This document shows positions 2,238 through 63,361 of a DNA stretch of 64,000 nucleotides, piece by piece. The notes below the pieces were generated by a model. That model was not told the origin of the DNA. It was given only the letters and a program-made list of their open reading frames with translations, and searched no databases. The stretch comes from Nocardioides plantarum (GTDB lineage: Bacteria > Actinomycetota > Actinomycetes > Propionibacteriales > Nocardioidaceae). Made by a program: the position numbers and the translations under genes. The DNA lies in NCBI RefSeq assembly GCF_006346395.1, contig NZ_VDMS01000002.1:248001-312000 (forward strand), given 5' to 3'. Numbering within the stretch: the stretch's first letter is position 1; each line of letters opens with the position of its first letter.

Positions 2238-2903
2238 GTGACCGTCGAGCTGCCGATGTTCCCGCTGAACTCGGTGCTGTTCCCCGGGCTGAGCGTGCCG
2301 CTCCACGTGTTCGAGGACCGCTACCGCGCGCTCGTGCACCACCTGCTGCGCGTCGAGGACCCGACCGAGCGGGTCTTCGGCTCCGTCGGGATCCGGGAGG
2401 GCTACGAGGTCGGCGACCACGGCGCCCAGTCGCTGTTCCGGGTGGGGTGCAAGGCGCTGCTGACCGAGATCGAGGCCAACCCCGACGGCAGCTTCGACGT
2501 CGTCGCCGTCGGCCTCGACCGGATCCAGCTCGACCGGCTCGACACCACCGGCGTCTTCCCGGTGGGTCACGTCGAGGAGCTCGGCGACCCCGGTGCCCCC
2601 GTCGGCGAGGACGTGCTCGAGCGGGCGCGGGCGACGTTCACCGCCTACCGGCAGGCCCTGTCCGAGATCCGGTCCGACCCCTACGAGGGGACGCTCCCCC
2701 GCGACCCGATCTACCTGTCCTGGACCCTCGCCGCCTGCGCGCCGCTCCCGCTCTCCGAGCGCCAGGCCCTCCTCGAGGCCGACGACGCCGAGACCCGGCT
2801 GGTGCTGGTCACCGACCTGCTCCGCTCCGAGCTGCGCGCCATGAACGTGATCGCCTCGCTGCCGGCGACCGAGGTGGCCCGCACCCGCTGGAGCCCGAAC
2901 TGA
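2238..2903 (+). CDS. LON N-terminal (PUA-like) substrate-binding domain protein
   Basis: This is a 221-residue stand-alone protein resembling the N-terminal substrate-binding domain of Lon protease. It lacks the AAA+ ATPase and the Ser-Lys protease parts. The opening MTVELPMFPLNSVLFPG and the following LHVFEDRY are the typical family start. GTG at 2238 was chosen because the preceding in-frame codons encode low-complexity Arg/Gly sequence and a TAGGTT hexamer sits 7 nt upstream. It is transcribed away from hisD. Such proteins are widespread in actinobacteria, but their role is not established; a part in recognising unfolded proteins is only a guess from the domain. Confidence 0.85.
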   Translation: MTVELPMFPLNSVLFPGLSVPLHVFEDRYRALVHHLLRVEDPTERVFGSVGIREGYEVGDHGAQSLFRVGCKALLTEIEANPDGSFDVVAVGLDRIQLDRLDTTGVFPVGHVEELGDPGAPVGEDVLERARATFTAYRQALSEIRSDPYEGTLPRDPIYLSWTLAACAPLPLSERQALLEADDAETRLVLVTDLLRSELRAMNVIASLPATEVARTRWSPN

Positions 2904-2914
2904 GCTCACCGTGG

Positions 2915-3013
2915 CCCTGCGAGGAACGAGCAGGGGCACGTCGTGAGCGAAGATCGAGCAAGCCCTGCGACCGAGGAACGAGGTCGCAACGGGCGCGTCG
3001 AGATCCCCGCAGC
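2915..3013 (+). repeat. Interspersed double-hairpin repeat, copy 1 (GAGGAACGA loops)
   Basis: Two hairpins share the same nine-base loop GAGGAACGA but have different stems. CCCTGC/GCAGGG closes the loop at 2921-2929 and TGCGACC/GGTCGCA closes the loop at 2973-2981. They are joined by a segment ending GAGCAAGC, and the element ends with GCGTCGA and CCGCAGC. It fills most of the gap between two co-directional genes and aligns base for base in spacing with the copy at 10094-10193. Confidence 0.8.
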
Positions 3014-3049
3014 GACAGCTCGTCCTGACCACGTACGAAAGGTCACCTC

Positions 3050-3538
3050 GTGCCCAAGAAGACCTCCGGCGGCACCCCCGCCACCGTCGCGCTGACCCGC
3101 GCCGGGGTCGAGTTCACGATCCGCGAGTACACCCACGACCCGCGCGTGACGTCGTACGGGCTCGAGGCGGCCGAGGCCCTGGGGGTCGAGCCGGAGCGGG
3201 TCCTCAAGACGCTGCTGGCCGACGTCGACGGGCGGCTGGTCGTCGGTGTCGTGCCCGTGACCGGCCAGCTCGACCTCAAGGCCCTCGCGCGGGCCGTCGG
3301 CGGACGGCGGGCCCAGATGGCCGATCCGGCTGCGGCCGAGCGGGCGACCGGCTACGTGGTGGGTGGCATCTCACCGGTGGGTCAGCGACGGCCGCACCCG
3401 ACCGTGGTGGACGCCTCGGCCCTCGAGCACCCGACGGTGCTGGTGTCCGGCGGGCGCCGCGGCCTCGACGTCGAGCTCTCCCCCGCCGACCTCGTGGCGG
3501 TCACCGGCGCGACGACCGCCCCGGTCGCGCGTCCCTGA
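3050..3538 (+). CDS. ybaK: YbaK/EbsC-type aminoacyl-tRNA deacylase
   Basis: A 162-residue protein of the YbaK/prolyl-tRNA editing family. Members hydrolyse mischarged tRNAs, for example Cys-tRNA(Pro), in trans. The order of motifs fits the YbaK subgroup: YTHDP near 27, RVLKTLLADVDG with the conserved Lys near 50, VGVVPVTGQLDLKALA, and GYVVGGISPVGQ near 105. GTG at 3050 is preceded by GAAAGG, a usable ribosome-binding site. A second, divergent member of the family lies at 43216. The exact tRNA substrate cannot be read from the sequence. Confidence 0.92.
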   Translation: MPKKTSGGTPATVALTRAGVEFTIREYTHDPRVTSYGLEAAEALGVEPERVLKTLLADVDGRLVVGVVPVTGQLDLKALARAVGGRRAQMADPAAAERATGYVVGGISPVGQRRPHPTVVDASALEHPTVLVSGGRRGLDVELSPADLVAVTGATTAPVARP

Positions 3539-10046: not shown

Positions 10047-10093
10047 CGGCAGCCGATGGATCGATCGAAGCACGAACCACCGACAAGCCGGCA

Positions 10094-10193
10094 GCCGAGC
10101 GCGAGGAACGAGCGCTCGGCGTCGCCGGCGCAGGTTGAGCAAGCGTCGCGGGTGAGGAACGAACCCGCGACAGCGCGTCGAAACCACCGCAGC
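10094..10193 (+). repeat. Interspersed double-hairpin repeat, copy 2 (GAGGAACGA loops)
   Basis: The same architecture as copy 1 at 2915. Stem GCCGAGCGC/GCGCTCGGC closes a GAGGAACGA loop at 10103-10111. Stem TCGCGGGT/ACCCGCGA closes a GAGGAACGA loop at 10154-10162. TTGAGCAAGC lies between them and GCGTCGAAACC plus CCGCAGC follow. The stem bases differ from copy 1 while pairing is kept. It occupies much of the 335-nt gap between dnaE and the acetyltransferase gene; otherwise the gap holds only a possible dnaE promoter and short tandem repeats. Confidence 0.82.
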
Positions 10194-10249
10194 AACACGT
10201 CGACCGGGCCACGCCACGAGGTCGTCGACACCCCGCCGTACGACGCCCA

Positions 10250-61881: not shown

Positions 61882-61914
61882 AGCGCTCACGAGGGTCGGG
61901 TTCGTGGCTGCGGC

Positions 61915-62027
61915 CAGGTTTCGAGACGCGTCGCTGCAGGCCCTCGCGAGCTCGGGCCTCCAGCCGACGCTCCTCAACCTTTCGGGCCTGAGGTCGGTCT
62001 TCGCAGGCTCAGACCGACCGGGCCCTC
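61915..62027 (-). repeat. Interspersed double-hairpin repeat, copy 3 (GAGCnnGCGA loops)
   Basis: Read on the minus strand. The outer parts (GTTGAGG..., GCGTCTCGAAACC) match copies 1 and 2. Its hairpins have loops GAGCCTGCGA (stem GGTCGGTCT-type, arms 61992-62000 and 62011-62019) and GAGCTCGCGA (arms 61938-61943 and 61954-61959). It overlaps the last codons of the class II DAHP synthase. Confidence 0.7.
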
Positions 62028-63361
62028 AACATCTCCGCGACGAGGAAGGCCAGCTCGAGGGACTGCACGCGGTTGAGCCGCGGGTCGCAGACGGACTCGT
62101 AGCGGTCGCCGAGGTCGGCCTCGAGGAGGTCCTCACCGCCGCCGACGCACTCGGTGACGTCGTCGCCGGTGAGCTCGACGTGCACGCCGCCGGGCCAGGT
62201 ACCGACCTGGTGGTGGACGTCGAAGAAGCCCTGGACCTCCTCGATCACGTCCTCGAAGCGCCGGGTCTTGTAGCCCGAAGAAGCCTCGAAGGTGTTGCCG
62301 TGCATGGGGTCGCAGACCCAGGCGACCTGCAGGCCGGCGGCGGTGACCTTCTCGACGACCTCGGGCAGGCCGTCGCGGATCCGGCCGGCACCGAAGCGGG
62401 TGATGAAGGTCAGCCGCCCGGGGATGTTGTCGGGGTTGAGCCGCGAGGCGAGCGCGATGGCGTCGTCGGCCGACGTGGTCGGGCCGAGCTTGACGCCGAT
62501 CGGGTTGCGGATGCGGCTGAGCAGCTCGACGTGGGCGCCGTCGAGCTGACGGGTGCGCTCGCCGATCCAGACGAAGTGGGCCGACAGGTCGTAGGCCGCC
62601 CCGCTGCCGGAGTCGTGGCGCGTCATGGCGTGCTCGTACTCGAGCAGGAGGGCCTCGTGGCTGGTGTGGAAGTCGACGTGGTGGAACTCGTCGGGGTCGG
62701 CGCCGATGGCCTGCATGAACGCCATGGCCCGGTCGATCTCGAAGGCGAGGGCGTCGTAGCGCTGCCCGGCCACGGAGTCGGAGACGAAGTCGGTGTTCCA
62801 GGTGTGGACCTTGCGCAGGTCGGCGTACCCGCCGGCGATGAAGGCACGGATCATGCTGAGCGTCGCGGCCGAGGTCCGGTGGACCTCGAGCAGCCGCGCG
62901 GGGTCGGGCACCCGGGCGTCGCGGGTGAAGTCGAAGCCGTTGACGGCGTCGCCGCGGTAAGCCGGCAGCGTGACCTTCTCACCGTCGACGAGCCGGGTCT
63001 CGAGGTCGGAGGAGCGCGGCTTGGCGTACTGGCCGGCGAGGCGACCGAGCTTGACGACCGGGACCGAGGCGGCGTAGGTCAGCACCACGGCCATCTGCAG
63101 GAGCACGCGCAGCTTGTTGCGGGTGTTGTCGGCCGTGACACCGGCGAAGGTCTCGGCGCAGTCGCCGCCCTGCAGCAGGAAGGCCTCTCCCCGGCTGACC
63201 GCCGCGAGCTTGTCGGTCAGGTCGTCGCACTCGTGGCCCAGGACCAGCGGGCGCAGCGTGCGCAGCCGGTCGACGGTCGCGTCGACCGCGGCCCGGTCGG
63301 GGTAGGTCGGCTGCTGGGCCGGGGACAGCGCGTGCAGCGCCGCCAGGTCGGGGATTTCCAC
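62009..63361 (-). CDS. aroG: Class II (plant-type) DAHP synthase
   Basis: 450 residues. A second DAHP synthase, unrelated in sequence to the one at 54570. LLQGGDCAETFAGVTADNTRNKLRVLLQMAVVL near 65, AGQYAKPRSSDLET, VHTWNTDFV, EFHHVDFHTSHEALLLEYE, GVKLGPTTSADDAI, VAWVCDPMHGNTFEASSGYKTRRF and GGVHVELTGDDVTECVGG form the metal and substrate sites of class II enzymes, as in Rv2178c. GTG at 63361 has TAGACT 6 nt upstream, so it is probably leaderless. The last few residues and the stop come from a repeat element. Confidence 0.96.
   Translation of the reverse strand: MEIPDLAALHALSPAQQPTYPDRAAVDATVDRLRTLRPLVLGHECDDLTDKLAAVSRGEAFLLQGGDCAETFAGVTADNTRNKLRVLLQMAVVLTYAASVPVVKLGRLAGQYAKPRSSDLETRLVDGEKVTLPAYRGDAVNGFDFTRDARVPDPARLLEVHRTSAATLSMIRAFIAGGYADLRKVHTWNTDFVSDSVAGQRYDALAFEIDRAMAFMQAIGADPDEFHHVDFHTSHEALLLEYEHAMTRHDSGSGAAYDLSAHFVWIGERTRQLDGAHVELLSRIRNPIGVKLGPTTSADDAIALASRLNPDNIPGRLTFITRFGAGRIRDGLPEVVEKVTAAGLQVAWVCDPMHGNTFEASSGYKTRRFEDVIEEVQGFFDVHHQVGTWPGGVHVELTGDDVTECVGGGEDLLEADLGDRYESVCDPRLNRVQSLELAFLVAEMLRARSV

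Follow-up and report, generated by a model that had tools for sequence, protein, structure and literature searches.

MIRU-type repeats of mycobacteria occupy the junctions between stop and start codons. Short palindromes near stop codons are also found in E. coli, where REPs lying no more than 15 nt from a stop codon have a reported effect on terminating ribosomes and translation (excerpted text of PMC12306157). Other REPs are grouped by sequence. In the portions of PMC3733652 that define them, the GTAG and CGTC superfamilies consist of palindromes of 20-40 bp with GTAG or CGTC as their terminal tag, and CGTC members, with a stem of 8-9 bp and a loop of 4-5 bases, are reportedly without a dedicated transposase. 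How do hairpins keep their pairing while their sequence changes? In template switching, the copying of a reverse complement can form a new stem or mend an old one at a single stroke, and the question of selection versus template switching has been raised for RNA genes (available passages of PMC8794818). The repeat described here is a natural system in which to ask how much of hairpin covariation stems from selection and how much from template switching or conversion of DNA, since genomes carry dozens of copies and sister genomes can be compared.

The repeat occurs twice in the window, by which we mean the whole stretch of 64,000 nucleotides of Nocardioides plantarum DNA analysed here, both times on the forward strand. 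Copy 1 lies between a gene for a LON substrate-binding-domain protein (2238-2903, forward strand; PF02190, E 2.2e-36) and a gene for an aminoacyl-tRNA editing domain (YbaK-type) protein (3050-3538, forward strand; PF04073, E 2.6e-25), which adjoin each other in element-free relatives. Its first hairpin, H1 (2904-2948), starts directly 3' of the TGA stop codon at 2901-2903 and has an outer stem (2904-2909/2943-2948), an inner stem (2911-2920/2930-2939) and a loop at 2921-2929. The second hairpin, H2 (2952-3005), has its loop at 2973-2981; at its foot GATC (2952-2955) pairs with GATC (3002-3005), and the tail CCCGCAGC follows at 3006-3013. In copy 2, H1 spans 10087-10129 (outer stem 10087-10092/10124-10129, inner stem 10094-10102/10112-10120, loop 10103-10111), H2 (GGTTGAG...TCGAAACC) spans 10133-10185 with its loop at 10154-10162, and the tail ACCGCAGC occupies 10186-10193; the genes flanking this copy are both on the other strand. 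Covariance model R2 matches the two copies at 2897-3015 (119.7 bits) and 10080-10195 (113 bits).

A sequence-only reading of the window had described two copies with two hairpins each and four GAGGAACGA loops, all of which are present at the loop positions given above. The loop pattern is matched 4 times in the window against 0.61 expected, with four or more matches in 0 of 100 shuffles, and none of the 200 shuffles made of each copy folds as well as the copy itself (z -3.70 and -3.58). The extents proposed at the time, 2915-3013 and 10094-10193, are correct at their 3' ends; the starts move outward, giving elements of 2904-3013 and 10087-10193, because the outer 6-bp stem of H1 lay outside them. 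The stems of the four hairpins differ, as had been noted, but do not all pair perfectly: copy 1 has a G-G mismatch in H1 (2914/2936) and an internal loop in H2. Spacing between the second hairpin and the tail had been called identical; the length from GCGTCGA to CCGCAGC is indeed equal in both copies, but the distance from the second loop to GCGTCGA differs by 1 base.

Alignment of 18 full copies of the window's genome reveals one architecture of about 107 bp, consisting of H1, a GMA linker, H2 and the tail. In H1, an outer stem of 6 bp is followed by a small internal loop in which one base (mostly A) faces three (mostly GTS), an inner stem of about 10 bp and a loop that is usually GAGGAACGA. 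In H2, GRTY pairs with RAYC; then come a GA/GA step, G-C pairs, an internal loop, about 7 bp and the loop. The tail is ACCGCAGC-like in the window's genome and often CCGGTGA-like in relatives. Invariance of the GAGGAACGA loop, once claimed, does not hold: the variants GAGGGACGA, GAGGCACGA, GAGCCTGCGA, GACGAAGGA and GACGAAGTC are also present. From its bases we read the loop as a putative combination of two sheared G-A pairs, a G-C pair and a GNA triloop, a plan with which the variants GACGAAGTC and GAGCCTGCGA are compatible; motifs of this composition are stable.

Pairing is kept across the copies. In 18 sequences 93.6% of stem cells are paired, with a covariation score of 0.533 versus 0.172 when shuffled; in 69 sequences the values are 94.6%, 0.621 and 0.185. 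Slid versions score at most 0.093 and 0.075, respectively, a comparison that favours the structure because the alignments had been fitted to it. Among 2099 stem cells there are 33 G-U pairs and 21 A-C mismatches, a ratio that we do not count as proof of either an RNA or a DNA level, given a p of 0.13 and a control of three tRNAs (G-U in 5/66). On the 5' arm of H1, U-G (18) exceeds A-C (7), a hint of tolerance at the level of RNA.

How does this element compare with the described repeats? Like the stop-proximal REPs of E. coli, for which slowing of ribosomes is proposed, it is a short palindromic repeat with many copies next to stop codons (PMC12306157, as excerpted). Unlike them, it is a composite of two hairpins with near-fixed loops and hypervariable stems, has a strong sense bias, often places H1 over the stop codon, and belongs to a genus in which no Y1 transposase was found. 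With GTAG/CGTC REPs and RAYT-associated REPs it shares the character of a dispersed palindrome (relevant sections of PMC3733652 and PMC2817692) and with CGTC REPs, according to the same part of PMC3733652, the lack of a dedicated transposase. CGTC, however, appears only inside the 3' arm of H2, the loops have 9-10 bases, the stem of H1 has 16 bp and the whole unit exceeds the CGTC palindrome at about 107 bp; neither the 18-row nor the 80-row alignment has a GTAG consensus at the ends of either hairpin. The element is a REP-like repeat variant outside the GTAG, CGTC and RAYT definitions as the compared parts of PMC3733652 and PMC2817692 give them, and neither "Actinobacteri" nor "Nocardioides" is present in the main texts of these two papers. 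The template-switch hairpins treated in the passages of PMC8794818 are RNA genes of known families, in contrast to a dispersed repeat whose template arm can be a coding end. Among the matches listed from open-licence PMC papers, we found no earlier description of the element, and those listed for the bare loop were unrelated by title; this appears to be an undescribed layer at the stop codons of ordinary Nocardioidaceae genes.

The window's genome (4.68 Mb) contains 37 copies at E <= 4.8e-6 by covariance model R1, 18 of them matched by construction because R1 was built from those copies. The two in the window are not the only ones. The GAGGAACGA loop with S-N flanks occurs there 66 times versus 7 for the reversed pattern, part of the 66 sitting outside hairpins. 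R1 detects the element in 28 of 36 relatives of the same genus and in 0 of 21 genomes from other families of the order. With R2, the full element was found in 79 of 197 Nocardioidaceae genomes, representing 7 of 26 genera. A sample of the class gave 14 positives in 296 genomes, all 14 Nocardioidaceae; since 25 of the 296 are family members, the full element was found in 0 of 271 genomes outside the family. These wide searches scored 12 to 63 candidates per genome, and the copy numbers and absences are bounds. The interspersed repeat with near-fixed loops and covarying stems that was proposed from the window is real, both genome-wide and family-wide.

The bare frame of H2, GGTTGAG-N20-50-TCGAAACC, has an exact match in 85 of the 296 class genomes. 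Four genomes outside the family (G242, G361, G370, G405) have 10 to 32 matches, against 0 to 2 per genome for the reversed control; loop and spacing are different in these non-family matches, and single matches are partly chance occurrences in coding DNA. Because this frame ranges wider than the full element, H2 appears to form the core of a more widespread group of hairpins, and the combination of H1 and H2 to be a Nocardioidaceae composite. The family genome G126 has 50 exact GGTTGAG...TCGAAACC matches, many of those listed being short single hairpins with a GAGGAACGA or GAGGGACGA loop. Copies can also be clustered. Three tandem units of about 100 bp follow one gene at G000:C1:430801-431116 (L008, L082; G000 is the window's genome), the H1 5' arm of the later units being built from the tail of the preceding unit; a tandem copy at L366 repeats the last codons of its gene; and at G147:C1:976106-976351 two copies in opposite orientation lie 19 bases apart, perhaps one for each of two convergent genes.

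We placed 80 model hits, 37 from the window's genome and 43 from relatives, with a simple codon-usage gene caller; one own copy received no upstream gene call, leaving 36. Element and upstream gene share a strand in 30 of 36 own copies and 35 of 43 copies from relatives (65 of 79 together), and the stop codon of that gene lies within -19 to +9 nt of the start of H1 in 26/36 and 25/43, compared with 778 of 20,000 random intergenic starts (3.9%). Of the 26 own copies in this range, 16 have the stop codon within the 5' arm of H1. By these counts the element has the placement of a stop-proximal REP, a stem-loop near the upstream stop in many copies. No same-strand upstream gene is present in 14 of the 79 placed copies, window copy 2 among them, and the stop is outside the -19 to +9 range in 28. 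The host genes are unrelated and include those for a thiolase, inositol-phosphate synthase (Ino1), Fe-S biosynthesis, an acyl-CoA thioesterase and the LON-domain protein.

Sites are gained and lost often. At the site of copy 1, the distance from the LON stop to the projected YbaK-type start is -25 to 34 nt in 51 of 54 empty genomes and 68, 195 and 423 nt in the other three (median of the 54, 12.5 nt), whereas the stop is 103-396 nt from the next gene in 17 filled genomes. The survey of this site comprised 81 loci, 7 of them without a downstream YbaK gene and 3 with remnants; 16 of 80 named loci are filled, and the filled/empty state changes 15 times on the gene tree, against a mean of 18.05 in 200 shuffles. 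The empty locus L323 retains bases resembling the start of its neighbour's H1. For the genes of Fe-S biosynthesis (L057) and Ino1 (L064), comparison was made with G514, the closest relative found to the window's genome: the element lies between the stop codon and a terminator-like hairpin, and that hairpin is also present in G514, which is empty at both sites. At the compared sites, then, the element either sits within an operon-like gene junction or precedes a terminator-like hairpin. L096 has additional DNA directly 3' of the stop, the H1 of that copy being reduced; at window copy 2, the intergenic DNA and that of the nearest relative are too diverged for comparison. An apparent fusion across two loops (L245) and an H2 without H1 (L252) look like losses by deletion. 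L026 (G000:C1:2074643), like L245, has the H1 5' arm and loop running directly into the end of H2, the arrangement that recombination between the two identical loops, with loss of the intervening DNA, would leave. After the thiolase stop of G086, L224 consists of a short imperfect stem around the stop, lacks H2 and is perhaps a decayed copy.

Could ordinary compensatory evolution account for the stems? We compared 11 sites common to two metagenome-derived sister genomes, G524 and G525; G523 (L137) has an H1 identical to that of G525, so that these two are probably one genome. Aligned upstream flanks are 90-96% identical, and downstream flanks 86-94% at the 8 of 11 sites where they can be aligned, the other three having no alignable downstream flank. 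Bases that differ between the sisters number 101/330 in H1 stems, 54/324 in H2 stems and 58/426 in unpaired columns of the element. Among 165 comparable base pairs of H1, 107 are unchanged, 15 changed on one side and 43 on both (35 of these Watson-Crick in both genomes); among 162 pairs of H2, 131 are unchanged, 8 changed on one side and 23 on both (22 Watson-Crick in both). Two-arm changes are about three times as frequent as one-arm changes. At L328/L324 both arms of H1 are replaced while H2, tail and flanks are retained; H1 stems are unchanged at L332/L329 and L339/L335, and L326/L346 shows point compensations.

Under purifying selection on RNA, stems do not outpace their flanks in divergence; rewriting, exchange or renewed insertion can have that effect. 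The sequence-only reading had taken compensatory change as showing that structure is selected. Pairing is indeed kept, but it is doubtful that this by itself proves such selection, because the H1 stems of the sisters outdiverge their flanks and change mostly on both arms, and because G-U pairs are few among the 2099 stem cells and not clearly commoner than A-C mismatches; for the same reasons, rewriting of the arms in DNA fits at least as well. A close donor for the replaced H1s in the same genome was found neither among 15 of the 17 copies of G524 nor among 35 loci for the 51 copies of G525, the best same-genome matches being 29/39 for L328 and 25/39 for L324. The H1 of L328 shares 36/39 bases with a copy at another gene in G000, and exchange between copies may for this reason take the place of template switching. 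Independent insertion at one site could also mimic the replacement of arms.

We inspected the end of the thiolase gene in 30 genomes of the genus. The element is present in 10, with E < 1e-8 in nine and 0.0013 in G026. In G510, G029, G010 and G518, 22 to 25 of 25 to 30 aligned positions of the downstream arm match the coding end and stop codon read in reverse complement; in G000, G514, G004 and G513, 10 to 17 positions do. The same coding end occurs without an inverted copy in genomes that lack the element, G013 among them. The fold-back score used was a strict version with a swap control and without the partial copy L178, a version with cheap gaps having been discarded as too permissive in GC-rich DNA. 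When coding ends were swapped, the own-species end fitted the arm better in 80 of 90 cases; between G000 and G514, two codon-position differences are both mirrored in the arm. At Ino1 the own arm was better in 17 of 20, a weak effect with short matches, and at the LON-domain site in 12 of 30, without a coding-copy effect. Since the effect is present at thiolase, weak at Ino1 and absent at LON, a coding-derived arm is, judging from these alignments, a property of some sites. At the LON site H1 follows the stop codon, and in most empty genomes there is no space for a native 5' arm, so the entire H1 came in.

The best overall explanation, to which we give a probability of roughly 0.5, is a REP-like hairpin that is anchored at stop codons and has its pairing restored, in part at least, at the level of DNA. 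Each copy has two hairpins, mostly in sense at or just after a stop codon, and stems that change fast yet remain paired. The element would be a short mobile repeat, built on H2 as its shared core, that spreads without the help of a Y1 transposase. Cotranscribed with its host gene, it would set a very stable stem ahead of the terminating ribosome and of 3' exonucleases, and by analogy with the stop-proximal REPs of E. coli this stem may act in mRNA, pacing or lowering translation or protecting the transcript. By analogy with the mechanism in the passages of PMC8794818, template switching, or else conversion, may partly renew the pairing by rewriting both arms or by copying one in inverted form; at the thiolase gene the copied arm would be the gene's own coding end. 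A more tentative version, possible though on balance improbable, takes these repeats for gene-end-copying elements: a fold-back of DNA by template switching, on insertion or afterwards, copies the last codons and stop of the host gene, as their reverse complement, into the DNA that follows the stop, rewriting and exchange between copies outpace the surrounding DNA while loops and linkers stay fixed, and covariation largely reflects the mechanics of mutation instead of selection on an RNA. If so, the host gene would carry a hairpin custom-made against its own coding end.

Much the same data could be read as a structured RNA under selection on the RNA itself, its loops bound by protein or RNA and its covariation the product of ordinary compensatory evolution. 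Near-fixed loops, linkers and internal loops together with strong covariation, the sense orientation at gene ends and the U-G excess on the H1 5' arm would all suit this reading. We nevertheless consider it rather unlikely, in view of the divergence of H1 stems between flanks 90-96% identical upstream, the 43 two-arm against 15 one-arm changes, the scarcity of G-U pairs relative to the tRNAs, and the absence of Rfam matches (0 for the window at gathering, for 2800-3100 at E <= 5 and for 12 loci at gathering). Scarce G-U pairs would suit, by contrast, a selfish DNA repeat that works in replication, recombination or transposition as a hairpin of single-stranded DNA, plays no part in mRNA and is merely tolerated at gene ends; patchy sites, deletions and remnants, tandem arrays and insertion into an operon-like junction also agree with such a repeat. 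Tolerance alone, however, does not lead one to expect sense orientation in 65 of 79 copies and a tight spacing to the stop, and no mobilising gene was found in a search for PF01797, so that this alternative is unlikely too. The sequence-only reading had pointed to a REP-associated tyrosine transposase, and short interspersed palindromes with fixed motifs do recall RAYT-mobilised REPs, but Y1_Tnp (PF01797) was found at E <= 1e-3 in 0 of 59 genomes of the genus, the window's own included, while 5 of 14 control genomes were positive; we give this idea almost no credence. REP-like repeats here inhabit a genus in which no Y1 transposase was found in 59 genomes. A family of transcription terminators would explain the position at gene ends, and it would suit as well the excess of convergent downstream genes, which follow 18 of 30 own sense copies versus 128 of 401 genes generally (32%; p 0.0025). 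Against it, the tail has no T-run of the kind that marks intrinsic terminators, a separate terminator-like hairpin stands further downstream at the two sites shared with the element-free relative, and in 17 genomes the element separates two genes that are direct neighbours in relatives; terminators are thus a very improbable explanation.

The window also contains a weak relative of the element on the reverse strand (61908-62032; R2, 33.9 bits). Within this match, at 61917-61979, lies a longer hairpin, GGTTGAGGAGCG...GCGTCTCGAAACC, another branch of the H2-type family.
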